A stretch of DNA of 64,000 nt from Deltaproteobacteria bacterium (lineage in GTDB: Bacteria; Desulfobacterota; Desulfomonilia; UBA1062), in assembly GCA_029547185.1 (NCBI GenBank), contig JAKPPU010000110.1, positions 1-64,000 on the forward strand. Direction: 5' to 3'. This document shows, one piece after another, positions 6,542 through 62,780 of the stretch. Under the pieces are notes generated by a model. The model was given only the letters and a program-made list of their open reading frames with translations, searched no databases and was not told the DNA's origin. Every line of letters begins with the position of its first letter. Within the stretch, counting starts at the first letter, position 1. Both the position numbers and the translations under genes were made by a program.

Positions 6542-7327
6542 ATGGCTGAATATATCAAGCTTGTCGACGTAACGAAGTGCACCGGCTGCAGGGGCTGCCA
6601 GGTGGCGTGCAAACAGTGGAACGAGTTGCCTGCGGAAAAAACCGGATTCACCGGTTCTCTGCAGAACCCGAAAGACCTTTCCTACAACACCTGGTGCCTC
6701 ATCAGGTTCGACGAAGTGGAGAAGAAGGACAAACTGAACTGGCTCATGCGCCACGATGCGTGCATGCACTGTGAGACGCCCGCATGCGTCAAGGCCTGCC
6801 CTTCACCCGGCGCCCTGTTCAAGACGCCGGAAGGCGCGGTCGTGCACGACACGAATTACTGCATCGGCTGCAAATCGTGCATCGTTGCCTGCCCGTTCGA
6901 CATACCGAGGAACAATCCTGCCATCGAAAAGATGGCCAAGTGCTCGCTGTGCTACGACAGGATAACCGACGGCAAGAAGCCCGCCTGCGTGACCGCGTGC
7001 CCCACCGGGTGTCTGAGCTTCGGCTCCAAGGACGCGATGCTCATGGCGGCTGAAAAACGCGCAGAGCAGATAAAGGGCTTCATCTATCCGAACAACCCCA
7101 AGTACGAGACCCACCTCATGTATATCATGCCCGGCACAGTCGAGATCACCGACTTCTCCCACACCAATCCGAACCCGAAGATGCCGGCGACAATCCTCTG
7201 GTGGAAGAACCTCTTCAAGCCGCTGACGCTCATCGGCATCGGCGGCGTTGCAGGAGCTGCCTTCCTCCATTACATCATCAAGGGACCGCACAGAGTTCAC
7301 GAGAAGAAAGAAGAAGGGGGTGAATAA
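6542..7327 (+). CDS. fdnH: Formate dehydrogenase beta subunit (four [4Fe-4S] ferredoxin)
   Basis: Electron-transfer subunit carrying electrons from the catalytic subunit to the membrane cytochrome. Ferredoxin-type cysteine groups appear in order: CTGCRGCQVAC, CMHCETPACVKAC, CIGCKSCIVAC, and CSLCYDRITDGKKPACVTAC, enough for four [4Fe-4S] clusters. Near the C-terminus is a single membrane anchor (LTLIGIGGVAGAAFLHYII). At 261 residues it is a little shorter than E. coli FdnH (294). GGGGGTG precedes the ATG, and its stop abuts the gamma-subunit ATG directly, so translation is coupled. Confidence 0.95.
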   Translation: MAEYIKLVDVTKCTGCRGCQVACKQWNELPAEKTGFTGSLQNPKDLSYNTWCLIRFDEVEKKDKLNWLMRHDACMHCETPACVKACPSPGALFKTPEGAVVHDTNYCIGCKSCIVACPFDIPRNNPAIEKMAKCSLCYDRITDGKKPACVTACPTGCLSFGSKDAMLMAAEKRAEQIKGFIYPNNPKYETHLMYIMPGTVEITDFSHTNPNPKMPATILWWKNLFKPLTLIGIGGVAGAAFLHYIIKGPHRVHEKKEEGGE

Positions 7328-7972
7328 ATGTCCGCACATGAGAATCTGATCAAGGTAACGGATGCGGAAGAGAGGATCGTTCACTGGCTCCTCGCCGGGA
7401 GCTGCCTCTTCTGTCTCATAACGGGCCTGGGCTTCATGTTCCATTCATGGAGCTTCATCGCCACGCTCTTCGGCGGCTACTATGCCATGAAGTGGATGCA
7501 CATATTCTCGGGCATCGTTTTCATGGCATCTCTCGTCTACTCCTACTTCATGTGGAAGAAGGACTGCGAGTTCGAGCCGAGTGATCTCCAGTGGGTGCTC
7601 AAGGGCGGGGGATATCTCTGGGAAGTGAAGGACCTTCCCCCGGTCTACAAGTACAATGCCGGCCAGAAGGCATTCTTCTGGATACTCGTGGCATGCGGAG
7701 CCGTCATCGTCATCTCGGGGCTCATCATGTGGAACCCTGTCTTCTACCCCGTGATCGCCGCGCGCTTCGCATACATGCTCCATGCAGGCGCAGTGGTCGT
7801 GCTGGGCTCCTTCATCGTGGTGCACATCTACCTGGGCACGGCAGGCAATCCGGGCACGGTGACGGCAATGTTCACCGGTCAGGTCACGAGAGCCTGGTGT
7901 GAAACGCACTGCCCGCGCTGGCTCGCGGAAAGGGACAATTACAAGCCCGGCCAGGAAAAGGAAACAGCATAA
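7328..7972 (+). CDS. fdnI: Formate dehydrogenase gamma subunit, cytochrome b556
   Basis: A 214-residue di-heme b cytochrome with four predicted membrane segments (for example CLFCLITGLGFMF, MHIFSGIVFMASLVYSYFMW, AFFWILVACGAVIVISGLI and LHAGAVVVLGSFIVVHIYLG). Histidines in the first and last helices are candidate heme ligands. It passes electrons from the beta subunit to the quinone pool. The start follows GGGGGTG in the end of fdnH. It is the last gene before a strong terminator, so the operon is fdnGHI-like. Confidence 0.93.
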   Translation: MSAHENLIKVTDAEERIVHWLLAGSCLFCLITGLGFMFHSWSFIATLFGGYYAMKWMHIFSGIVFMASLVYSYFMWKKDCEFEPSDLQWVLKGGGYLWEVKDLPPVYKYNAGQKAFFWILVACGAVIVISGLIMWNPVFYPVIAARFAYMLHAGAVVVLGSFIVVHIYLGTAGNPGTVTAMFTGQVTRAWCETHCPRWLAERDNYKPGQEKETA

Positions 7973-7992
7973 TACCTGCCGGTAAAGCGTAC

Positions 7993-8039
7993 AAGGGACT
8001 GACGAGGCCCTTTCTCGAAACCTCGTCAGTCCCTTTTTC
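7993..8039 (+). terminator. Rho-independent terminator of the formate dehydrogenase operon
   Basis: A 15-bp perfect stem (AAGGGACTGACGAGG at 7993-8007 with its complement at 8021-8035) closes a 13-base loop and is followed by a T-rich tract. It lies 20 bases after the fdnI-type stop codon. Confidence 0.92.
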
Positions 8040-8113
8040 TTTGACTCCACACCTCTTCTTCTCGGTGCAGGGACATAGTGCCCTTGCCGAGCCGTCCGCC
8101 CGGGGGTATAATT

Positions 8114-8704
8114 ATGGCTATGAAAAAAATCTCCTGTCTTTCGTTGGCCTTCTTGTTCTGTGCCTGGTTTTCCTCTGCAGGCGCAGCGGTTCCCGAACAG
8201 GGATATGGCAAGGCTATTACCCGGGCCAGGCTCCAGCCGATCGATGACAAGGCGGCCGCAGCATATCTGGGAATCCCGCAGAAGAGCGGCGGGGTCTCGC
8301 TCGGCGATATCGATGCCGATATCATCATCGTCGAGATCTTCAGCATGTACTGTCCTTACTGCCAGAGGCATGCACCAGCGACCAACGAGCTCTTCGATGC
8401 CATAGAGTCGGGAAATGCTACCCGAGAAAAGATCCGGCTGATCGGTATCGGGGTCGGAAACAGCGCTCATGAAGCCGCATTCTTCAAGAAAAAATACGGT
8501 ATCCGGTTTCCCCTGTTTTCCGATGCAAACTCTGCTGTCTTGAACTCCCTTCCCGGCGTGAGAACCCCCTATTATTTCGCAATCCGGAAGAAAGGAAAAT
8601 CCCTGAACGTATTCTTGCAGCAGCAAGGCGCCTTCGACGATCCTCAGGCATTCCTCAGGACCGTCATCGAGAAGTCCGGTGCCTCTGCCCGAGGAAAACA
8701 GTGA
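8114..8704 (+). CDS. Secreted thioredoxin-fold protein with CPYC motif
   Basis: A 196-residue protein with an N-terminal signal (MAMKK, a hydrophobic stretch, then SSAGA-A), so periplasmic or lipid-anchored outside the cytoplasm. The thioredoxin-fold domain carries the redox motif CPYC in IIIVEIFSMYCPYCQRH and a cis-proline-like segment (VRTPYYFAI). The family reduces or isomerises disulfides, or reduces cytochrome c maturation partners. The ATG at 8114 is chosen because GGGGG lies 7 bases upstream; a second ATG two codons later is possible. It ends in a four-base overlap with the peroxiredoxin-like gene, suggesting joint thiol-redox work. Partner specificity is unknown. Confidence 0.82.
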   Translation: MAMKKISCLSLAFLFCAWFSSAGAAVPEQGYGKAITRARLQPIDDKAAAAYLGIPQKSGGVSLGDIDADIIIVEIFSMYCPYCQRHAPATNELFDAIESGNATREKIRLIGIGVGNSAHEAAFFKKKYGIRFPLFSDANSAVLNSLPGVRTPYYFAIRKKGKSLNVFLQQQGAFDDPQAFLRTVIEKSGASARGKQ

Positions 8705-9309
8705 AAACGTCCCTTGCCCCCGTTGTCAGCGCAATGATTCTGTCATCATGCCTGCTCCTTGTCAGCATCCCGGGCCTGTCCGCGTCTGATGCACTGAAGG
8801 AGGGGATCTACCAGACGGGGAAGCTCAAGCCCGTGGACAGCACCCTCAAGGTGAAGGTCGGCGACAGGGCCCCGGATTTCACCCTCGTGTCGCTCAGCGG
8901 CAAGAAGGTGTGTTTGAAAGACTACCGCGGAAGGAAGAACGTCATGCTCTCGTTCGTACCTGCCGCATGGACGCCGGTCTGTTCGGACCAGTGGCCGGGA
9001 TACAATATCGCCCGGGAAGAATTCGAAAAGTATGATACCGTCCTTCTCGGCATTACCGTGGACAATATCCCGACCCTGTATTCCTGGACAAAGTCCATGG
9101 GTGAGCTGTGGTTCCCGGTGCTCTCGGATTTCTGGCCGCACGGCCGCGTCGCAGAGAAATACGGGGTCCTGCGTTCGAACGGAACGACGGAGCGGGCGAT
9201 CTTCCTCATCGACAAGAAGGGAAAGATACGCTACATCGACGTCCACGACATCAACAAAAGGCCTCCCCTGGAGACCATCCTGAGCGAGCTCGAGAAATTG
9301 AGCAGGTGA
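8701..9309 (+). CDS. Exported peroxiredoxin (AhpC/TSA family)
   Basis: A 202-residue protein with a signal peptide and an AhpC/TSA domain: VKVGDRAPDFTLVSLSGKK, then the peroxidatic site PAAWTPVCSDQW, matching the family P-x-x-x-T/S-x-x-C pattern. It likely reduces peroxides in the periplasm. No obvious resolving cysteine pair is seen C-terminally, so it may be a 1-Cys type relying on an external thiol; the CPYC protein upstream is the natural candidate. Start is GTG inside GTGA, overlapping the stop of the upstream gene, with GAGGAAA ahead of it. Confidence 0.85.
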   Translation: MKTSLAPVVSAMILSSCLLLVSIPGLSASDALKEGIYQTGKLKPVDSTLKVKVGDRAPDFTLVSLSGKKVCLKDYRGRKNVMLSFVPAAWTPVCSDQWPGYNIAREEFEKYDTVLLGITVDNIPTLYSWTKSMGELWFPVLSDFWPHGRVAEKYGVLRSNGTTERAIFLIDKKGKIRYIDVHDINKRPPLETILSELEKLSR

Positions 9310-9416
9310 ATTCCCCTGCATGAGCCTTCCGTCCGAGCGCGACTGAAAAGCCGGTCAATGTCCCCAGGCGACCCGGGAACCGCCCCGCCCATGCCGGCCG
9401 GAATGCAGGAACGGTC

Positions 9417-10022
9417 TCACCCGTCGGCAAAACCCTTCTCGAGGCATGATTTCTCGTTTCCATCAGCCTTTTCAAGCCAGTCCCGTTTCCAGTAATAAAG
9501 ACAGCACCGATCACACCCTTCATTGCTGATGAGATCCTTTCCATCGCAGTATAAGCCGTCCAGAACAACAAGATCCTTACATTCCCGTATCTTTTTCCCA
9601 TCCCGGTCGAGTATGGAGCGGGGCGTTTTCAAAACCGTTGCCGTCTGACTGCAATAGCGTTTCATACCCGGAAGAAAATTCAATCCTTTGTACTTGCCCA
9701 TGGGGTTCAAGGTGCACGCTATCTGTTCGTAGGGTTTGATACGAACGCTGTCTCCACGTTTGAGCTCTGTCTTCAATGTCTTTTCTTCACCACCTCGATG
9801 ATCTCCCGTGTCGATAAGGGGCTTGTCCATACGATGGCGGAAAAGCAGCTTCGAATACTTCGACAATCTTCTCTTCAGCGCAGGGGGTATCCTCAAGGCA
9901 AGCTGCCAGTATTTCTCCATGGGGCTCAATGCATGTCCTGATCGGCCCAGGGAGGTGTATTGGCAGGTGTAAGCCTTCACGCCCTCATTTTCGTTCTGCC
10001 GTTCGGGGATTGCCTTGTCCAT
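9417..10022 (-). CDS. Small cysteine-rich protein, long paralogue of the tandem pair
   Basis: A 201-residue protein not assigned to a characterised family. The last 110 residues are clearly homologous to the neighbouring gene: GDxVRxxPYxxI, then FLPGMKRYC, VLK, a C, LDGLYCDG, and CDRCCLYYWKRDWLEK. I recall similar short proteins (pattern F-x-P-x-M-x-x-Y-C ... C-D-G ... C-x-x-x-C ... WK-x-x-W) as uncharacterised genes near polysaccharide clusters. The first 90 residues are a basic extension (ALKRRLSKYSKLLFRHR) absent from the paralogue. GGAAGGTG inside the end of the upstream gene serves as its ribosome site, with a 1-base gap. No signal peptide. Function unknown; metal binding by the conserved cysteines is only a guess. 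Confidence 0.78.
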   Translation of the reverse strand: MDKAIPERQNENEGVKAYTCQYTSLGRSGHALSPMEKYWQLALRIPPALKRRLSKYSKLLFRHRMDKPLIDTGDHRGGEEKTLKTELKRGDSVRIKPYEQIACTLNPMGKYKGLNFLPGMKRYCSQTATVLKTPRSILDRDGKKIRECKDLVVLDGLYCDGKDLISNEGCDRCCLYYWKRDWLEKADGNEKSCLEKGFADG

Positions 10023-10023
10023 A

Positions 10024-10386
10024 TTACACCTTCCTCACCCAGGCGGTTTTCCACAGAAGCGTACAGCACTGGTCGCAGTCCCTTCCGTCAAGCATGCCTG
10101 CTCCGTCGCAGACAGGGCCGCTCAATATAATGATATTCCTGCATGAGAGCATCTCTTTATGATTCTCGTCGAAAATCCACCTGACCGGTTTTAAAACCTT
10201 GTATTCCCGGTCGCAGTATTTCACCATACCGGGCATGAACAAAAGCCCGTCATGGCAGTTGCTCCCGTCAAGGGTCTTCGATATCTCATCATACGGGAGA
10301 ACTCTGACGATATCACCCGCCTTGATGCGGGCGCCATTACCGGCACGTAGACGATATCCGAGATAATTCAACAATCTCTTGATCAT
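10024..10386 (-). CDS. Small cysteine-rich protein, short paralogue of the tandem pair
   Basis: A 120-residue protein consisting almost entirely of the domain shared with the next gene: GDIVRVLPYDEI, FMPGMVKYC, VLK, a lone C, LSGPVCDG, CDQCCTLLWKTAW. Six cysteines are kept between the paralogues. The start ATG overlaps the stop of the CelD-like gene (ATGA), so the three are translationally coupled at the 3' end of the polysaccharide locus. No transmembrane segment or signal peptide is seen. No biochemical role can be named. Confidence 0.78.
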   Translation of the reverse strand: MIKRLLNYLGYRLRAGNGARIKAGDIVRVLPYDEISKTLDGSNCHDGLLFMPGMVKYCDREYKVLKPVRWIFDENHKEMLSCRNIIILSGPVCDGAGMLDGRDCDQCCTLLWKTAWVRKV

Positions 10387-11552
10387 GATCTTTGCTTCCT
10401 TACGTTATTTCGCAGGAACCTCACTGCGTGAGGCATGCCCGGAATAAGCTTCAGCCTTTGCTTGAGCAGAGACCGGCCGTACATCAGGGTGCCCCGGACA
10501 GATGTGTTGTAGAGCGTCATGAGGGTATAGAACGTCTCCTCATCGGCATAACGGTGCTTGTAGCCGTAATCGACAGGAAACATGTGGAACCTTTTCACAT
10601 CCGGATGATGAAGGATGATGTCTTCAATGATGAACAGAATGAGATTGATCGAAGGCGAGAGTGAAGAATGTTCCTCGTTATATCCTGTCTTGCAGCAATG
10701 GAAGACATCCTCGTCCCTGTAGCAGAATGCACCTGCCACTGCCTGACCGTTTATTTCCAGGAAGTACATATGGAGCCGTTCATCCTCGTACAGCATCCTT
10801 ATCAGGCTTTCATAGTACGAGCGGTAGTTCGGGGGCAGTTTCGCCAGAGACGACCCCCCCTCCCCCTTCCATCCCGAATCCTCGATGGAGAGGAACACAG
10901 GCCATGAGCCGAGGGCATCATCGCCGGTGTAATGACGGAATCTGTGTGTGGGATCTGCAGCGAGCTTTCTTTTTTTTGCATTGGCTTCCTTTCGTGTTTT
11001 TGCAGAAAGGTGGCGGTAATAGTCTTCGATGGATTCCGGAAGCAGGGCGGTATATGTAGGCTTTATCTCCGTCTCGAGACGATAGGCATCGGCATTTGCC
11101 ACCCCTGTCTGTGCGTCTTTCTGAAAAGAGTATCCGCTTCGGTACAAGAGCACATCCCAGCCGTGCTTATCCGAGAGGAGCGCTTCAATGAAGTTCCTGG
11201 AGAATGCATCTTCGCACCCTTGCGCAACCAGCACGCCGGGATGGCGGCAGTGCGGATTCGTGAGGCTCGAAAGCACACGGACGGGACCGTTTTTCTCCAG
11301 GACCAGGGGAAGAAAGCCTATGATCCTTTCCCCTTCGAATACGGGGTACACCCGGACACGGTCGGGCTCTGCAAATGATTTGTACCACAGAGCGATATAG
11401 TCAAATGAGATGAAGAAGGAGCTCGAAGATTTCTCCCTGCAGATATCTCTCCATGTTCCTTCTATCGCGGAAAGCCCGTCGAAATGAACAATGGGCCTAT
11501 GAGAGATCAGCCCATGGCTTTTTGCCTGGACAAGGGGCTGATGCATGTTCAT
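10383..11552 (-). CDS. GNAT-fold acyltransferase of the CelD/BcsL-FemAB type
   Basis: A 389-residue cytoplasmic protein of the GNAT superfamily subgroup associated with cellulose and exopolysaccharide clusters. Typical pieces are PSITFxxF-like substrate entry (SSFFISFDYIALWYKSF), IGFLPLVL, the LSAKTRKEANAKKRKL helix, and the CoA-fold region YFLEINGQAVAGAFCYRDED. Such proteins are thought to transfer acyl or aminoacyl groups onto sugar intermediates; the substrate is unknown. It overlaps the short cysteine-rich gene by four bases and lies 51 bases downstream of the acyltransferase 3 gene. Confidence 0.82.
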   Translation of the reverse strand: MNMHQPLVQAKSHGLISHRPIVHFDGLSAIEGTWRDICREKSSSSFFISFDYIALWYKSFAEPDRVRVYPVFEGERIIGFLPLVLEKNGPVRVLSSLTNPHCRHPGVLVAQGCEDAFSRNFIEALLSDKHGWDVLLYRSGYSFQKDAQTGVANADAYRLETEIKPTYTALLPESIEDYYRHLSAKTRKEANAKKRKLAADPTHRFRHYTGDDALGSWPVFLSIEDSGWKGEGGSSLAKLPPNYRSYYESLIRMLYEDERLHMYFLEINGQAVAGAFCYRDEDVFHCCKTGYNEEHSSLSPSINLILFIIEDIILHHPDVKRFHMFPVDYGYKHRYADEETFYTLMTLYNTSVRGTLMYGRSLLKQRLKLIPGMPHAVRFLRNNVRKQRS

Positions 11553-11603
11553 ACCTCCTCAATGGTAAGGGGCCATACTCGGGCAGACTGTTTGATGATG
11601 TAT

Positions 11604-12728
11604 TCAGGATAGGGGCTCTTCTCCGGGATGCGGCATCGCCTGATCACTCCCGGCGCTCAGAACCGGCCGGGCGGCCTCCACTCCGAGCAGTCTCCCGAGA
11701 AGGAGCTTGAGTCCGTCTGCGAACCTCTTTTCAATGAGCGTATTCACTGCATATGCAAAGAACATCATCCCGATGACGGTTCCCCACATGACCATATGCC
11801 TGCCGACCTTCGGAAAGAGATGGTTGAAGATCGTGTATCCGACATTCTGATGGATCAGGTAGAGGGGGTAGGTGATCGCCCCCAGGACCAGCCATCGGGG
11901 AGTTGAGATCAGTCTCGTGTACCTCAGGGAGACGAGGGAGAAGATTACAAAGAAAGATGTAATGACTGCGGAAACGATGAAGACATCGAACGGGACGCGG
12001 TAATGGGATACCAGGGCAGAAGCCTGAGAGACCCCGCCCCACAGAGCCAGAACGTAGCATACGCCAAGGATGCAGATTCTATAGGCGGTGAAGCCCGACG
12101 TATATGAGATGTAGAACATGGACCCTGCGATGAAATAATGGGCATATTCCGGCATGGCTAGGAGCGAAAGATACGGGACCTCCCACCGGGAGACCACCAG
12201 CACTGCAGCAAGCCATATGCCGAGAAGCCTTTCAGCGTGCCTGATCATGCCCAGTGCAAGCACAATACATACAAGAAGGTAGAACTGGATCTCCACGTAT
12301 AAGGACCAGTACACATCGTCGATGGAGGGGATTCCCAGGAACTTGGCCGCCATGGTCATGTTCAGGAGATACTGCCCTGCAGTCACTTGATAATTCTGCT
12401 GATTGCCCGCAAGGGCCATCACCAGGGCGCTCATCGTGCAGCACACCCAGAACGCCGGGTAGAGCCGCACGGTCCGGGAGATGATGAACTGTCTCGCTGA
12501 GCCCTGTGAAGCCGTCATGAGAATGACGAACCCGCTGATGATGAAGAACAGATGGACACCGAGATACCCATACTTCGCTGCGCCTTCCAGGGGAGGATAA
12601 TTCATGATCGACATGCCGTCTGCGGCCATGCCGCGGAAGGCATAGTGGAAGAGTACGATCATGCAGGCAGCGATGAACCGGAAAAGATCTATTTCGTAGA
12701 GCCTGTTGTGAGTCTTTCTCGAATACAT
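11604..12728 (-). CDS. Acyltransferase 3 family membrane protein (sugar O-acetyltransferase)
   Basis: A 374-residue integral membrane protein with about ten hydrophobic segments. The N-terminus EIDLFRFIAACMIVLFHY contains the R/K-F/x-x-A and H motif typical of acyltransferase 3, and GVHLFFIISGFVI follows. Members O-acetylate or succinylate exported polysaccharides using cytoplasmic acyl-CoA. It starts 14 bases after the tyrosine-kinase gene and so belongs to the same leftward operon. Which sugar it modifies cannot be told. Confidence 0.9.
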   Translation of the reverse strand: MYSRKTHNRLYEIDLFRFIAACMIVLFHYAFRGMAADGMSIMNYPPLEGAAKYGYLGVHLFFIISGFVILMTASQGSARQFIISRTVRLYPAFWVCCTMSALVMALAGNQQNYQVTAGQYLLNMTMAAKFLGIPSIDDVYWSLYVEIQFYLLVCIVLALGMIRHAERLLGIWLAAVLVVSRWEVPYLSLLAMPEYAHYFIAGSMFYISYTSGFTAYRICILGVCYVLALWGGVSQASALVSHYRVPFDVFIVSAVITSFFVIFSLVSLRYTRLISTPRWLVLGAITYPLYLIHQNVGYTIFNHLFPKVGRHMVMWGTVIGMMFFAYAVNTLIEKRFADGLKLLLGRLLGVEAARPVLSAGSDQAMPHPGEEPLS

Positions 12729-56193: not shown

Positions 56194-57096
56194 TCAGCAG
56201 TAGTACATCGCGCAGCCCACGGTGATTCCCTGCCCTACGGTGATGAACGCGGCTTTCATGCCGGGTTTGATCATATTGTTCCGCATGGCGTAATCGAAGG
56301 CGATGAAAGGAGATGAGGTCAGGGTGACGCCGTTTAAGATACCGGTTACGTCTATAACCATTTCTTCGGGCAATCCCAGGCCCCGTGCAAGCCGGACCAT
56401 GAAATTCGGGGATATCTGCGTGGCGAAAACGAAATCCACGGCATTGTACGTGGACAGAATCCTTTCTTTCTTGAGGAGCTTTTCATAGGTGATGGCAGCG
56501 CATTCGACGTAGATCTCTTCCAGCTCGTCGTTTTCCCAGCCGCATGTCTTTCTGCTTTCATTGTCCACGTCCAGGTACCGGCAGGGCAGGTCGGAGTAGA
56601 TATCGAAGGTTTTGAACAAGAAGGAACCGAATCCCTTGTCCGGATTGGGAGAAATATCCACGATAACCGCTGAACCGCTTGCCGAGCAAGCATTCATGCC
56701 CATATTCATATTGGCAACCTCCATATTTGTATTCATATCGCCCGCGATCATCATTCCAACCCGGGCTGCCCCGCCCTTTATGGCCGAGATGATCACCTTT
56801 ATCCCGGTAAGCCCTCCGGAAGCCCCATTCATCAGGTCGAAGGAAAACGTGCCCTTTCCGCCGACACCGGTGTTCATATCGAGCGAATCCTGTATCGAGA
56901 CCGCGTTTGCCGGCTCAAAGACGTGGCTGGGATGACGGGTCTTGGCATTCACCAGGTAGCTGATGTTATACACCGGATGGCTTGAAGTGCTCAGGCAAGC
57001 CCTTGCCGCTTCCACGGCAGGATCTACCGAGCCTTCTCCATTCACCCTGCTTCGCGGCCGCATCGCTGCTCCCACGCTTTCTATCCTGCATCTCAT
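56194..57096 (-). CDS. KAS III-fold protein lacking catalytic residues (second of pair)
   Basis: A 300-residue thiolase-fold protein aligned by eye with FabH. The stretch FSFDLMNGASGG matches FDVAAACAGF of FabH, with Ala92 where the nucleophilic Cys should be. FVFATQISPNF matches LVPHQANLRII with Thr for the catalytic His, and ILNGVTLTSSP matches RHGNTSAAS with Val for Asn. The C-terminal GQGITVGCAMYY keeps the glycine loop. So the fold appears intact but Claisen chemistry is not expected. The ATG six bases into the overlap is chosen; a TTG at 57102 overlapping the upstream stop is possible. It probably pairs with the preceding gene product. Confidence 0.8.
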   Translation of the reverse strand: MRCRIESVGAAMRPRSRVNGEGSVDPAVEAARACLSTSSHPVYNISYLVNAKTRHPSHVFEPANAVSIQDSLDMNTGVGGKGTFSFDLMNGASGGLTGIKVIISAIKGGAARVGMMIAGDMNTNMEVANMNMGMNACSASGSAVIVDISPNPDKGFGSFLFKTFDIYSDLPCRYLDVDNESRKTCGWENDELEEIYVECAAITYEKLLKKERILSTYNAVDFVFATQISPNFMVRLARGLGLPEEMVIDVTGILNGVTLTSSPFIAFDYAMRNNMIKPGMKAAFITVGQGITVGCAMYYC

Positions 57097-57098
57097 GT

Positions 57099-58229
57099 TC
57101 AATACCCCACAGCGTACCGGCCCCTGTAGCGGACCGGCAGGTCATCCATTGTGTACGTCGCCATGCCCATGATATAACCGGGGGCCGAGAGATCGAAGAC
57201 GATCCTGCTGCCCTGATCGATCCTGCCGCTCAGGATGCTTTCATGCAGGGCTATGAAGCTGGAAGCGGATGCGGTATGCCCGTATCTCTCGACGTTCTCG
57301 ACAAAAATCCGATCAAGCTTTTCATTGAACCCTCTCTCGATAACCTGCTTGCCCTTCCTGATGAGGTGCCTCGAGGCCTGATAGGGTATGAAGACATCCA
57401 CATCGGCGAGCGACCATTCGGTTCTATCGAGGGCCTCCTTGAATACCGGCCATGTCAGGTCGTATGACCTGCAGTGATGGGTAACCGAGTTCGAGATGAT
57501 CTCTTCGAGGGCCGTGTGACTGGGCATCCTCATCATTCCGGCATTGAAGGCCTTTGCACCGGTGAAGATCGAGAGGTAGTGGAGCCCCTGGTCCCTGTGG
57601 GCTCCCCCGTCGAGGATGAGCGCTGCCCCTGCATCACCGAAGGTCAGGTCGAGCAGGTCATCAACGAATTCTCCGCTTTTATTTCTTCGGGAAAGCCAGG
57701 AGAGCCGGGATGGAGTATCCCCGCTGGCCACCAGTCCCACCCTGACCTCGCCGCTCTTTATCATGCTGTCCACTATCGCGATTGCCGAGAACATTCCCGC
57801 ACCGGCATTGGCGACATCGAAGTGCATCGCATTTCGGGCATTGAGGTCGTTCATGATCCTGGCACTCAGGCAGGGCTCCCCGCTGTGCTTGTTTCCGTTT
57901 TCATACCCCGGGAATCCCGTACTGACGATTATCTCTATATCTTCCGGACGGTACCGCGAATCCTTGAGGGCATTCTGCGCAGCTGAGAGGGCGATATCGG
58001 ATGCTGACTCCCCCTCGGCAACACGGCGTTCCCGTATACCGGTTATTTTCTCCAGATCCCTGTCTCCCGGCCTGTTCAACCGGGCAAGCAGCTCGGACGT
58101 CGTCAAAATCTTCTTCGGAAGGTACACGCCCAGGCTCTCAAATCTCGTTTTCCTTGCCCCGGCCCCCCTTGCCTGTGCAATCGGCAAGTGAAGGATCCGT
58201 GCTCTTCTCCTCTCTTGGAGATTGTTCAT
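57099..58229 (-). CDS. KAS III-fold protein lacking catalytic residues (first of pair)
   Basis: A 376-residue FabH-like protein. ITGIRERRVAEGE and TFGDAGAALIL are typical KAS III motifs. At the three catalytic places, HFDVANAGAGM has Gly143 for Cys, FIPYQASRHLI has Tyr283 for His, and VERYGHTASASS has His318 for Asn. About 28 basic residues precede the fold. GGGAGGG lies before the ATG. Possible roles are a structural partner, an acyl carrier or acyl-CoA sensor, or an acyltransferase with a changed active site, as in other Cys-less KAS III relatives. Confidence 0.82.
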   Translation of the reverse strand: MNNLQERRRARILHLPIAQARGAGARKTRFESLGVYLPKKILTTSELLARLNRPGDRDLEKITGIRERRVAEGESASDIALSAAQNALKDSRYRPEDIEIIVSTGFPGYENGNKHSGEPCLSARIMNDLNARNAMHFDVANAGAGMFSAIAIVDSMIKSGEVRVGLVASGDTPSRLSWLSRRNKSGEFVDDLLDLTFGDAGAALILDGGAHRDQGLHYLSIFTGAKAFNAGMMRMPSHTALEEIISNSVTHHCRSYDLTWPVFKEALDRTEWSLADVDVFIPYQASRHLIRKGKQVIERGFNEKLDRIFVENVERYGHTASASSFIALHESILSGRIDQGSRIVFDLSAPGYIMGMATYTMDDLPVRYRGRYAVGY

Positions 58230-58608
58230 TCCGTCACCCTCCCGGAATAGTCTCCAGACATGTTCGTGTGCGATGACATGGCTGCGATTATAACCAAAAG
58301 GGTTTACAGATAGGTTACAGATTACACGATTACAAAAATAATGATGAGCTCATGTTTTTTACATGTGAATACAATATCTTATCAGACTGGGACCTGCTGT
58401 ATGCATGCAAACGGGGCATGCCTTTAAAAGGTTATCCCTCTGTAAATCCAGAAGAATTCATGGTGGAGTGAGGGAAATGGGATGAAAAAGGGAGTGCGAC
58501 AGGAAATGACTGATTGGTTTACGGATTCGCTAGAAATTTGAGTTCGACCTGAAGATATCTATTTTGAATCAAAGAGCCCTTAAACAAATATCTGAAAGGA
58601 AGGTGCCC
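58230..58608. promoter_or_regulatory. Divergent promoter region of the KAS III-like pair and the alpha/beta hydrolase
   Basis: Contains four TTACA boxes at 58304, 58315, 58322 and 58330 (steps of 11, 7 and 8 bases) and an inverted repeat CATGT (58351-58355) / ACATG (58361-58365) across TTTTT. The cluster suits a regulator site. No gene is seen, and no clear -35/-10 pair was fixed. Confidence 0.4.
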
Positions 58609-59430
58609 ATGAGCGCTATCACGACCAAAGACGGCACTCGGATCTATTATAAAGACTGGGGGACGGGCCAGCCTGTTGTCTTCAGCCACGGCTGGCCGCT
58701 CAGTGCAGACGCCTGGGAAGATCAGATGTTCTTTCTGGCCTCCCGCGGATATCGATGCATTGCCCATGACCGGCGGGGTCATGGCCGATCGAGCCAGACA
58801 TGGGACGGCAACGACATGAACACGTACGCAGACGATCTCGCAACACTCGTTGAAGCACTCGATCTTAAGGATGCAATTCATGTCGGCCACTCTACCGGTG
58901 GCGGCGAGGTCGTCCGGTATCTAGGCCGCCACGGCACAAAGCGTGCTGCCAAGGCTGTGCTGATCGACGCAGTGCCGCCGCTGCTGCTCAAGACCGCTTC
59001 CAATCCGGGGGGATTGCCTATTGAAGTCTTCGATAATCTCCGCGCCAGCGTCCATGCCGATCGCTCGCAGTTTTTCTATGACTTTTCCCTGCCGTTTTAC
59101 GGCTACAACAGACCGGATGCCAAGGTCTCGGATGGAGTCCGCCGGTCGTTCTGGCTCCAGGCAATGCTGGCCGGGTTCCCGGCAGTGTACCTCTGTATCA
59201 AGGCATTTTCTGAAACTGACTTTACCGATGATCTGAAGAAGATAGATATTCCGACCCTGATCCTGCACGGGGATGACGATCAGATCGTGCCTATTGCCGA
59301 CTCCTCCCTGCTCACGGTCAAGCTGGTGAAGAATGCGCAGCTGAAGGTTTATGAGGGCGCGCCGCACGGCTTGTGCACGACCCACAAGGATCAGGTCAAT
59401 TCGGATCTGCTGGAGTTTATCAAAGGCTAG
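58609..59430 (+). CDS. Alpha/beta hydrolase (non-heme chloroperoxidase-like)
   Basis: A 273-residue alpha/beta hydrolase. The oxyanion region is [12 protein letters not shown], the nucleophile Ser is in [18 protein letters not shown], the acid is in [11 protein letters not shown] and the His is in [10 protein letters not shown]. The GHSTGG version and [16 protein letters not shown] are typical of cofactor-free haloperoxidases/esterases of the bromoperoxidase family. The ATG follows AAGGAAGGTG. It converges on the regulator gene with an 8-base gap. Confidence 0.93.
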
Positions 59431-59438
59431 TCGGCTCT

Positions 59439-62400
59439 TTAAGCGCTCTCTGATCGGATGGATTTAGCGATGGCTTCTGTCTGGGGCGAAGGATCGGCAT
59501 CGAGCTTGGCTTCGAGCATCCTCTTGCATCTCTTGAAGACGGAGATCGCCTCGGGCTTCTTCCCCAGGTGCGTCAGGCATGCCATCAGCCTCCGGTAGCA
59601 TCCCTCGTCGCAGTCATCCACCCCGAGTCCTGCCTCGAGATACTCCCTCGCCTTCTCCCACTGTCCTTTCTCAGATAAATGATCGCTCAGCTGGTAGAGC
59701 GAGCGGAAATACCTCTCCTTCATACGCTCGCCCATCGATACTGCATCCGGGTTCCAGACCTCCTCCTCAAAGTACGGGCCCCGGTAGAGCTCCAATGCCC
59801 TGGCTGTCATCTCACAGGCCGCATTGTTCACTTCCTTCCCATGCGCCTTCTTCCAGAGGTCATCCGCCTTGTCGAGAACCCTCTCAAATGCCCAGGCGTC
59901 CACCCAGCACAGATTCCTGTTCAGGGACAGCGTCCCTGCCTGCACCTGCACCGCCTCGTGATCCCCAAGGAGCTTCCTCAGGCGGTGAAGCGTGGTTGCC
60001 AGAGACTTCATGGCAAGATCTCCCTCTGCTGCAGGCCAGAGTATGTCCGCTATGTGCGTGTCGCTTACCGGCGCTCCCCCTGCACTCACCAGCGCCTTCA
60101 AAAGCTCGAGCGGCATCTTTTGCGCCTTTCGCGCAAACTGGACCGGCTCACCGTCCCGTACGATCTCGAACCTGCCCATTGTGTATATCTTAAGCGGCCA
60201 CGGCCACGCCTCCAATGTCAAAGGCGCCTCCTCGGGCATCAGATTCCTCCGGCCTATCATCTCCTTCACGTATTCTACTTCTATTCCTACCTCCAATGCC
60301 CTCGCACACAACGACCCTGCACTGGAGGGATGGTCGAGCGCAAAAACATAGAATCCCGATTCCCTTCCTGCTTCCAGGGCTTCCTGCAGACAGGAGATGC
60401 CCTGGTTGACTTTGCCCTGCTCGAGTGCGATGGCTGCCTCGACAGCCTTTGCAGAGAACCAGACCAGCCTGCTCGGCGTGTTCCTCGTAATGGCTTCGAT
60501 CTCGGAGAGAATCATGCGAGTCTTTTCGTGATCTCCGAGATAGTGTGTGACCCATGCGTGCAAGAGGGAGCAGAGGGAAACCTGGAAGGGCATGGCATAA
60601 TCCTTCGCAAGCTTGACTGAGTGCTCGGCCAGGAGCAGGGCCTCTGCGTACTTTCCGCAAATCATCGCCTGCCTCGATCTCACGGCGAGAATGAGATGTC
60701 TCCACGGTCTAGGCTCTTCCTCATATTGAGCGAGCATTTTCAGGTAATGCTCTGCGCGCTTGTAATCCCGGACATCCTGGCAGCTCATGGCTGCCATGCC
60801 CATGAATGGGACATCGCCCAGACGTATACCGCTGGCGTTGAGTATTTCCAGGCCTTTCTCCGCTGCCTGTATGCATCTCTCATGAAGGCCCGAATACTCG
60901 CTGTATATCATGTCCGCAAATGCCTGAATGACCTGTCTCATCTCTGTCATTGGGCCTTCGCGGGCCATTTTATTGAGTTTTTCAATGTCTTGGGCAACTT
61001 CGTGCAACGATCCGGCATTGAGGTGGAAGTAGGCATAAAAGAATAAGGTCGAGGCAATCGTATCGATGTCACCGGCCTTCCGTGCCAGATCCAATGCCAG
61101 ACCCGCCCACTCCTCGACTTCGGGGCTCGCACGATGCTTGATAGCCAGGATGGCGAACATGGCTCCGGCTACGTTGGACCTGATTTCGTCAAGAGGCATG
61201 GCATCGAAGTCTTCCCTGTGATTGCTCAGGTCTTCCAGGAGGTCGTCGAGTCTTGAATACGCCAGGTTGCCGAAAATAATGGCCTTGGCGATGCCCGTCC
61301 AGGAGAGAAAAAATCCGAAGAGGTCGTTCTTTTCCTTGAACTGGCGGTAGGCATCCTCGAAGTGCTCCTTGCTCGCGACCGGGTCAAAGGGAAACCGGCT
61401 CGCCCCAAGCCAGAACAGAAGCCAGGGCGAGGAATCCAGGACCTCTTGCGGTATGGCCGTGATCCACTGCTCCAGTGTCCGGTGCCTGCCGTGGTCCAGC
61501 ATGTCCTTGGCATGCTGCATGATGAACACGGACATGGTTTCCCATCCCCCTGCCTCGATCATCAGGTTCAGCGCATCCTCCACCTGCCCGTCCATCTCCA
61601 AAAGCAGAGCGGCCTTGTTGATCAGCTCGAGGATCTCTTCCCTGCTGAATCTCTCCTTTGACCGGTCGAGGAGAAACTGTCTGAAAAGAGGATGGTATGA
61701 GTATACGGCATCGTCGTGGAACCTCCGCTCGATGAAGTAGTTGTATCGCCTCAACGAGGAGAGAATCTTCCTCGCATCAGAGATCCCCGTGAGGTCTTCA
61801 GCGAGCTTGATGCTCATTCTCGGCAGGTAGACACTCTTGAGGAGGAAATCCTGCACCGGCTCGCCCAAGGTATTGAAAGCTTCGCTCACGAAGTAGTCGA
61901 ACACCGCCTCGGGAGACTGGCGGAAGAATACGTGGGGGTCTGCCCCCTCCATCTGGGATTTCTGCACCATGAGCACCACCCCCGCTGCCCATCCGCCGGT
62001 CAGGTAGTGGAAGTCGTGGACCTTCTTGTCGGAAAAATACCCGGGTGCGAGGAGCTCGGCAATCTTCTCGGTCTCCTCGGGGTCGAGCCTGAGGTCGTTC
62101 CATCCGATGATCGACATCTGCTGGCATGCATCCAGGCGGGAGAACTCGCTGGGAGGCAGTTTCCTGCTGATGAAGATCACCCGGCTCCCCCCCGGGATCA
62201 CCGACATGCCCTTCGAGAGGACTGCATGGATCATCGACTGCTCCGGAGCCTCCTGATAGTTGTCGAAGACGAGCACCATGTCTTCGGGAATGCTTTCGAA
62301 GAGTTCTTCGAACCAGCGCAGCGCAAAAGTCATGAGCCCGGGTTGATACTCGGGTGTGAGCAGAGGGAACGAATCGGCCTGAGGGATGGATATGCCCTTG

Positions 62401-62657
62401 ATTGCCTGCTTGAGGTAGTAGAAAAGGGTTGCAGGGTCGGCATCCCCTTCGTCTATCTGGTACCACAGGCATTGCAGCCCGTGCTCCTTCAGATAGCTGT
62501 TCACCAGGGTGGTCTTGCCGGACCCTGCCGGGCCCGCCACCCAGGTGACAGGATATTCCCCCGCCCTCTCGAGGAGATCGTATACCCGCTTGCGCGGATA
62601 GTACCTCGGTAAGAGAGGCTGAGTTACCTTTGCAAGAGATCTCGCCCTCTTCTCCAT
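59439..62657 (-). CDS. MalT/STAND-type transcriptional activator with C-terminal BTAD
   Basis: A 1072-residue regulator. The N-terminal STAND ATPase has Walker A AGPAGSGKTT at residues 41-50 and the Walker B-like MVLVFDNYQ. A winged-helix region and a long TPR-like helical solenoid follow from about residue 380 to 830. The C-terminus has an OmpR-type DNA-binding domain (PLELLKALVSAGGAPVSD, TTLHRLRKLLGD) and a bacterial transcriptional activation domain. Such proteins sense a ligand and bind DNA as oligomers. The ATG with GGAGGAG upstream is preferred over a TTG two codons earlier. Target genes are unknown; the adjacent alpha/beta hydrolase is a candidate. Confidence 0.9.
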   Translation of the reverse strand: MEKRARSLAKVTQPLLPRYYPRKRVYDLLERAGEYPVTWVAGPAGSGKTTLVNSYLKEHGLQCLWYQIDEGDADPATLFYYLKQAIKGISIPQADSFPLLTPEYQPGLMTFALRWFEELFESIPEDMVLVFDNYQEAPEQSMIHAVLSKGMSVIPGGSRVIFISRKLPPSEFSRLDACQQMSIIGWNDLRLDPEETEKIAELLAPGYFSDKKVHDFHYLTGGWAAGVVLMVQKSQMEGADPHVFFRQSPEAVFDYFVSEAFNTLGEPVQDFLLKSVYLPRMSIKLAEDLTGISDARKILSSLRRYNYFIERRFHDDAVYSYHPLFRQFLLDRSKERFSREEILELINKAALLLEMDGQVEDALNLMIEAGGWETMSVFIMQHAKDMLDHGRHRTLEQWITAIPQEVLDSSPWLLFWLGASRFPFDPVASKEHFEDAYRQFKEKNDLFGFFLSWTGIAKAIIFGNLAYSRLDDLLEDLSNHREDFDAMPLDEIRSNVAGAMFAILAIKHRASPEVEEWAGLALDLARKAGDIDTIASTLFFYAYFHLNAGSLHEVAQDIEKLNKMAREGPMTEMRQVIQAFADMIYSEYSGLHERCIQAAEKGLEILNASGIRLGDVPFMGMAAMSCQDVRDYKRAEHYLKMLAQYEEEPRPWRHLILAVRSRQAMICGKYAEALLLAEHSVKLAKDYAMPFQVSLCSLLHAWVTHYLGDHEKTRMILSEIEAITRNTPSRLVWFSAKAVEAAIALEQGKVNQGISCLQEALEAGRESGFYVFALDHPSSAGSLCARALEVGIEVEYVKEMIGRRNLMPEEAPLTLEAWPWPLKIYTMGRFEIVRDGEPVQFARKAQKMPLELLKALVSAGGAPVSDTHIADILWPAAEGDLAMKSLATTLHRLRKLLGDHEAVQVQAGTLSLNRNLCWVDAWAFERVLDKADDLWKKAHGKEVNNAACEMTARALELYRGPYFEEEVWNPDAVSMGERMKERYFRSLYQLSDHLSEKGQWEKAREYLEAGLGVDDCDEGCYRRLMACLTHLGKKPEAISVFKRCKRMLEAKLDADPSPQTEAIAKSIRSESA

Positions 62658-62780
62658 CTGCAATCACTCCTCCCGTCAGGTGCGAGGATGGACGAGAATG
62701 CAGATGAAGGTAGTATGCAGATAGCGCAAATCCCTTGCTGGAAAGCTACTGCCATCGCCCTTGTTCATAACATACCTCAA

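Follow-up and report, generated by a model that had tools for sequence, protein, structure and literature searches.

A KAS III-type gene pair of apparent LstAB ancestry with the catalytic triad replaced in both subunits

The gene pair and its catalytic positions

Two adjacent KAS III-type genes, termed A and B, lie on the minus strand of the window—the whole 64,000-nucleotide stretch of contig JAKPPU010000110.1 that was analysed. The genes, their key codons (those at the catalytic places of A being assigned by FabH alignment and codon reading) and the nearest divergent neighbours are as follows:

57099..58229, minus strand: gene A, LstA-like KAS III subunit of 376 amino acids, ATG start, triad replaced (G143, Y283, H318)
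57876..57878, minus strand: Glu118 of A, in the Glu-Pro motif (other distinct A sequences: Glu in 83 of 85, Lys in 2 of 85)
57801..57803, minus strand: codon 143 of A, GGT (Gly), place of the nucleophilic Cys
57381..57383, minus strand: codon 283 of A, TAT (Tyr), place of the catalytic His
57276..57278, minus strand: codon 318 of A, CAT (His), place of the catalytic Asn
56194..57102, minus strand: gene B, LstB-like KAS III subunit of 302 amino acids, TTG start, without the triad as in its family
56914..56916, minus strand: Glu63 of B, in the Glu-Pro motif (Glu in 86 of 86 B rows)
56821..56823, minus strand: Ala94 of B, codon GCT, aligned with the FabH Cys
56419..56421, minus strand: Thr228 of B, codon ACG, aligned with the FabH His
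56326..56328, minus strand: Val259 of B, codon GTC, aligned with the FabH Asn
58564-59430: alpha/beta hydrolase gene, divergent from the A-B pair
59439-62663: gene for a BTAD-type regulator of 1074 amino acids, beyond the alpha/beta hydrolase gene

The two genes overlap by 4 bp and a GGGAGGG stretch lies immediately 5' of gene A, in agreement with the overlapping or abutting arrangement and the ribosome site described in a sequence-only reading of this DNA; the coordinates and the A residues Gly143, Tyr283 and His318 given there proved exact against the frames, the FabH alignment and the codons. Gene B has an alternative start at an in-frame ATG at 57096, two codons later, which would yield 300 amino acids, and the residue earlier numbered Ala92 is Ala94 when counted from the TTG. 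Together, the A and B frames remain open over 678 codons, with neither a stop nor a frameshift.

Pfam, AlphaFold and structure matches place both proteins in the KAS III (ACP_syn_III) fold. Above the Pfam cut-offs, A matched ACP_syn_III_C and ACP_syn_III, and B matched ACP_syn_III_C. AlphaFold modeling of each protein, a check proposed in the sequence-only reading, returned confident KAS III folds for A (pLDDT 85.4, pTM 0.88) and for B (pLDDT 87.4, pTM 0.89), and the structure matches of both single-chain models include FabH and OleA. In pairwise alignments with solved FabH chains, the catalytic Cys, His and Asn fall on G143, Y283 and H318 in A and on A94, T228 and V259 in B, which bears out the Ala, Thr and Val earlier assigned to B. 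No member of the triad stands at its FabH-aligned place in either protein, and inspection of the alignments by eye revealed no shifted triad elsewhere in A or B. FabH itself has the same fold and provides the top sequence and structure matches among solved proteins, but it is a triad-bearing homodimer, and its condensation with malonyl-ACP is decarboxylative.

The closest precedent for the pair is LstAB/OleA rather than PqsBC, because the Glu-Pro motif is kept in both window subunits. According to the available text of the review PMC12141560, the lipstatin pathway contains a KAS III heterodimer, LstAB, with C128, H271 and N305 in LstA and E60 in LstB, in which the LstA C128A, LstA H271A and LstB E60A substitutions abolished activity and LstA N305A gave no soluble complex with LstB. 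In OleA, the Glu of the Glu117-Pro motif of one subunit is the base in the active site of the other and is needed for activity (available text of PMC7064751; the base role also in that of PMC4578411). The window pair resembles LstAB in its adjacent KAS III genes, in keeping Glu63 in B where LstB has an essential Glu, and in the spacing of the triad places (128/271/305 in LstA, 143/283/318 in A); it differs in that LstA carries Cys-His-Asn and condenses two acyl-CoAs, whereas A has none of these residues, and in that no lst-like genes were recognised beside the pair. With OleA the pair shares the KAS III fold and the Glu-Pro motif, which in OleA reaches the partner's active site; however, OleA is a homodimer with an intact triad, while the window pair is a presumed heteromer without one, in a genome without a clear oleD orthologue. 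From its motif and its place in the chain, Glu63 of B can be taken as the putative counterpart of LstB E60 and OleA E117.

PqsBC, the precedent named in the sequence-only reading, is also a heteromeric KAS III pair with one triad-less subunit; in the available text of PMC4807248, PqsB lacks all three triad residues and PqsC the Asn only. A similar division into an active and an inactive member, one of them using a Cys-His dyad, is very improbable for the window pair: PqsC keeps Cys129 and His269, but neither A nor B holds a Cys or a His at the dyad's catalytic places, which refutes the dyad. Moreover, PqsC entries were missing when solved structures were searched with the A profile down to 1e-20, and appeared at about 1e-13 in the corresponding search with the B profile. 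Among the literature matches listed, none described a KAS III heteromer whose two subunits both lack the triad.

Distribution of the pair and changes at conserved positions

To place the pair among its relatives, genomes were sampled at several taxonomic depths. Among 60 related genomes, including that of the window, only two others (G011 and G017) matched both proteins (A at E<=1e-30, B at E<=1e-10), and the seven other genomes of the genus gave no match to A or B at these thresholds. The first of the two carries two A-B pairs about 11 kb apart, and in the second, two A genes and a single B were seen on two contigs, the pairs being truncated at the contig ends; in both genomes, the A proteins have an intact triad and the B proteins do not. 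These were also the only matches besides the window's own genome in a class sample of 42 genomes, and in a phylum sample of 395 genomes—each sample again including the window's—the same five other genomes matched A (E<=1e-60) and B (E<=1e-30), with A and B adjacent in all five. A wider scan of species-representative genomes, queried with a five-row A alignment, gave 100 relatives, of which the best 80 were examined and found to span at least ten phyla; a scan of named genomes queried with the window protein alone gave none. These 80 loci and nine from earlier searches make up 89 A rows. Three scan loci (L055, L061 and L072) were records already found and were dropped as duplicates, leaving 85 other distinct A sequences; the 86 B rows comprise 82 distinct sequences.

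The pairing of A with B is widespread. A B match above 100 bits occurs within the same locus for 85 of the 89 A rows, which, together with the adjacency in five other genomes of the phylum, answers the earlier proposal to look for a conserved neighbourhood of the pair. That count includes L016 and L055 (one record), where the contig's B does not adjoin that A. The two are separate genes in 32 of these 85 rows, the window included, and share one frame in 53; 45 of the 53 single frames exceed 1000 amino acids from stop to stop, although that of L044 is long only by this measure and is an A-B fusion of 682 amino acids from its start codon. Adjacent KAS III genes, one mark of an LstAB-type heterodimer, are thus present in the window and its relatives with four exceptions: L017 and L070, which both stop at a contig end, L114, with a weak downstream B match (56 bits, profile 20-186), and L045, where B is absent from the 504 bases after A and from the rest of the contig. 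The A gene of L045 (5093-6763) has an intact triad and, with no recognisable B on its contig, is a real or apparent exception to the pairing.

A second mark of an LstAB-type heterodimer, the Cys-His-Asn triad in A, is missing from the window's A. Cys/His/Asn occupies the catalytic places in 85 of the 85 other distinct A sequences, a set drawn beyond the own phylum by pattern scan only, with one of the two scan patterns requiring Cys or Gly at the nucleophile (present in 38 of the 89 A rows, absent in 51); the window alone has Gly/Tyr/His. In B, the situation is reversed. All 86 B rows, the window's included, combine the Glu of the Glu-Pro motif with the absence of Cys and His from the catalytic places: the Cys place holds Ala (49), Gly (23), Ser (8), Glu (4), Asn (1) or Thr (1), and the His place Pro (53), Ser (17), Ala (6), Gln (5), Thr (3), Asn (1) or Val (1), while the Asn place holds Asp in 76 rows, Asn in five and Val in the window. 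A triad-less B is therefore normal for the family. The residue after the Cys column is Cys in 18 of the 86 B rows, eight of which come from the nine loci nearest the window's A, and Ser in the window's B; the relatives' B is thus Cys-free at the aligned place but not always across the loop. Rows with this neighbouring Cys include L038, L041 and L067.

Judged from these alignments, the window's A is the abnormal member of the pair, descended from triad-bearing enzymes. The sequence-only reading had called a pair stripped in both members unusual, and this holds for A, where the triad is missing from one of 86 distinct sequences; the same loss in B is ordinary, being shared by the whole family. 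That reading had also regarded an active KAS III gene always fused or adjacent in relatives as evidence against it, and in a sense such a gene exists, as the relatives' own A is a triad-bearing KAS III. No second triad-less A was found among the 85 other sequences, and the state is known from one assembly.

The loss in A is pointed at the catalytic residues, and the change in B is milder. The window keeps 17 of the 21 A columns that are invariant in the other 85 sequences and loses C143, H283, N318 and A180; the chance that four random losses would cover all three catalytic columns is 0.003, or 0.011 when computed on ten losses in 41 columns. With duplicates dropped, 11 of the 43 A columns at 95% conservation are changed in the window—the triad and eight others, including T322A and H324S, close to the Asn place, and S350P, which adjoins the glycine of the C-terminal loop. 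Keeping duplicates gives 10 of 41, the highest loss of any A row; next come L114 (7 of 43, triad intact) and L102 (4 of 41). At lower thresholds, A keeps 42 of 57 columns (90%) and 58 of 89 (80%). The window's B retains 7 of 7 invariant columns, 14 of 15 at 95%, 21 of 25 at 90% and 29 of 37 at 80%. The spread of these changes also bears on whether the triad replacements could be sequencing or assembly errors. The source assembly is split into 215 contigs, with an estimated contamination of 5.31%; error is nonetheless hard to credit for three distant codons that each now read as sense, accompanied by eight further changed columns at 95%.

Our phylogenetic tree groups the window's A with the nine loci L036-L044 (support 97/88) on a branch of length 3.11, a length that makes the placement unsure. 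At matched B identity, A identity was lower for pairs involving the window than for other pairs (0.302 vs 0.335 and 0.303 vs 0.354, and in two further B-identity bands 0.347 vs 0.391 and 0.367 vs 0.509, the last from two window pairs), in a comparison of non-independent pairs that omitted duplicates, L016, L070, L114 and loci without B. The lower A identity at a given B identity implies that the window's A has moved faster than its B. Relaxed constraint fits the long branch, the high losses and the acceleration of A as well as a new job does.

Genomic neighbourhoods and Ole-type genes

Downstream of A-B in the window lie a TtuA-like gene, a GCD14-like methyltransferase gene and an RF3 gene; as none of the neighbours names a substrate, they point to no particular one. 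The oleB, oleC and oleD genes expected beside a pair in an Ole pathway were not found in the window by the searches made here. The alpha/beta hydrolase at 58564-59430 was rejected as OleB, its NCBIfam matches being led by 3-oxoadipate enol-lactonase at 82 bits, below the cut-off. Searched against the window genome, the OleD-type gene of L040 gave a best match by E-value of 29% identity, with shorter matches at no more than 38%, and a 44% ligase match in the same genome was not accepted as OleC.

We also ran tblastn with the L038 genes against the nine loci nearest the window's A. Six of the nine contain an OleD-type gene (L038 itself and, at 43-79% identity, L036, L037, L040, L041 and L044) and three a similar ligase (L038 itself, L037 at 85% and L044 at 62%); neither was detected at 1e-10 in L039, L042, L043 or the window. 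Pfam was consistent with these results for the frames scanned. The L038 reductase has OleD as its top match (222 bits vs a cut-off of 580). The ligase upstream of A-B in L037 was rejected as OleC: its top matches are ordinary long-chain fatty-acid ligases, and olefin beta-lactone synthetase is absent from the best 25 of 103 families.

Two further loci displayed a fuller Ole-like arrangement. In L032 (9436-14975), A and B are followed by a haloalkane-dehalogenase-like hydrolase (158 bits, cut-off 466), a ligase (698 bits to PRK09274, above its cut-off of 478, and 598 bits to olefin beta-lactone synthetase, cut-off 900) and an OleD-like reductase (411 bits, cut-off 580). In L067 (10031-15693), the order is A, B, a hydrolase-ligase fusion (ligase at 706 bits, above the cut-off of 478) and an OleD-like reductase (451 bits, cut-off 580). 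From this gene order A-B seems to replace oleA, and the A-B proteins of both loci are likely a heteromeric OleA. A different architecture occurs in L046 (Mycobacterium, 6650-12007) and L102 (Ktedonosporobacter, 6554-12004)—the two large frames scanned of the 45 exceeding 1000 amino acids—where Condensation, AMP-binding and PP-binding domains precede A and B in proteins of about 1800 amino acids; this NRPS-type fusion suggests that in an LstAB-type condensation one partner is an aminoacyl or acyl-amino acid thioester. Finally, the loci of G011 and G017 (L014 and L015, L016 and L017, respectively) have as neighbours genes for a thiamine-diphosphate enzyme, an alcohol dehydrogenase and an epimerase, and further genes for a B12-binding radical SAM protein, an aldehyde:ferredoxin oxidoreductase and a class II aldolase.

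Possible roles of the pair and other KAS III-type genes

By descent and architecture, A-B is best described as an LstAB-type (heteromeric OleA-like) KAS III heterodimer. By analogy with the known systems, the ancestral LstA-like A would have held an acyl group on its Cys, helped by His and Asn, with the Glu of B reaching across the interface to serve as base in a non-decarboxylative Claisen condensation that joins two acyl-CoAs. The window copy has retained the fold and Glu63 of B while A lost its Cys, His and Asn—a loss that would preclude an acyl-enzyme on that Cys and with it the condensation, so that the pair most likely neither forms an acyl-enzyme nor condenses. Our leading, if tentative, reading is that a once-active heterodimer, no longer condensing, has been kept as an acyl-thioester-binding or Cys-free complex. 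Such a heterodimer might still take acyl thioesters into the pocket of A without covalent capture, and A-B would then be a binder or modulator of acyl-CoA or acyl-ACP, the presumed substrate class. Heterodimer formation in the window is likely by descent, but the missing soluble complex of LstA N305A indicates that loss of the Asn alone may hinder it, which renders dimer formation uncertain.

A more novel reading is that the heterodimer has turned into a Cys-free enzyme or an acyl-thioester sensor, with Glu63 of B projecting into a remodelled pocket of A in which Tyr283 and His318 take the places of His and Asn, and serving non-covalent chemistry or acyl-CoA sensing. We regard this as rather doubtful; if true, it would provide a KAS III heteromer with the nucleophile missing from both subunits. 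The purely enzymatic variant—Glu63 acting as the base in the pocket of A, with Tyr283 and His318 as new polar groups, in a non-covalent acyl-thioester reaction such as alpha-proton removal or an aldol-type or retro-Claisen step—seems distinctly unlikely. Both Glu63 of B and Glu118 of A are retained, of the three A replacements two are polar groups able to exchange protons, and the T322A, H324S and S350P changes resemble a remodelled site; however, the Glu residues may be retained for structural reasons, the new residues occur in no homologue and the neighbours suggest no substrate.

Alternatively, the pair could be a relic: a working LstAB-type pair would have been acquired, the rest of its pathway either lost or never gained, and the triad eroded, with the frames open only for now. 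We consider this unlikely, albeit deserving weight. It would explain why the triad-less state was seen once and why seven other genomes of the genus have no match, and it agrees with the lack of a clear OleD orthologue in the genome, with the faster change of A than of B and the many conserved columns altered in A, and with the failure of LstA N305A to yield a soluble complex (available text of PMC12141560). On the other hand, the uninterrupted 678 codons, the loss of a single 95% column of 15 in B and the coverage of all three catalytic residues by the invariant-column losses in A argue against decay. In a selection-free drift simulation on gene A alone, without insertions or deletions, the runs that still had no stop numbered 113, 76, 28 and 4 of 150 at amino-acid changes of 2, 5, 10 and 24%, respectively. 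Stops are thus expected in a long-dead gene but not necessarily in a recently dead one: about half of the runs remain open at 5% change, and hardly any at 24%.

The window pair offers a natural test of the role of the LstB-like half when the catalytic half is dead, and, if functional, it would show a carbon-joining enzyme pair turning into something else. More broadly, the survey reveals the A-B module to be widespread, located beside oleB/C/D-like genes in at least two loci and fused to preceding NRPS-type domains in the two large proteins scanned.

The search for other KAS III-type genes of the window genome with the A profile at 1e-5 returned the window's A and B only. The remaining PF08541 matches in that genome are two HMG-CoA-synthase-like proteins, with no FabH seen among them. 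Across 24 genomes of the window's family, the PF08541 matches apart from A-B number 26, of which 25 lie in frames of 479-530 amino acids—as long as the HMG-CoA-synthase-like proteins—and the remaining one in a frame of 303. In this family, FabH may not be what initiates fatty acid synthesis. A-B was considered as a substitute for FabH but, since the family's other genomes show a similar picture, the lack of a FabH match says little about the A-B pair. The two HMG-CoA-synthase-like genes of the window genome (L003:847-2319 and L004:850-2307) encode proteins that are 71% identical; the Cys of a Ser-Ser-Cys motif in one is replaced by Ser in the other, which may be a second case of nucleophile loss in the genome.
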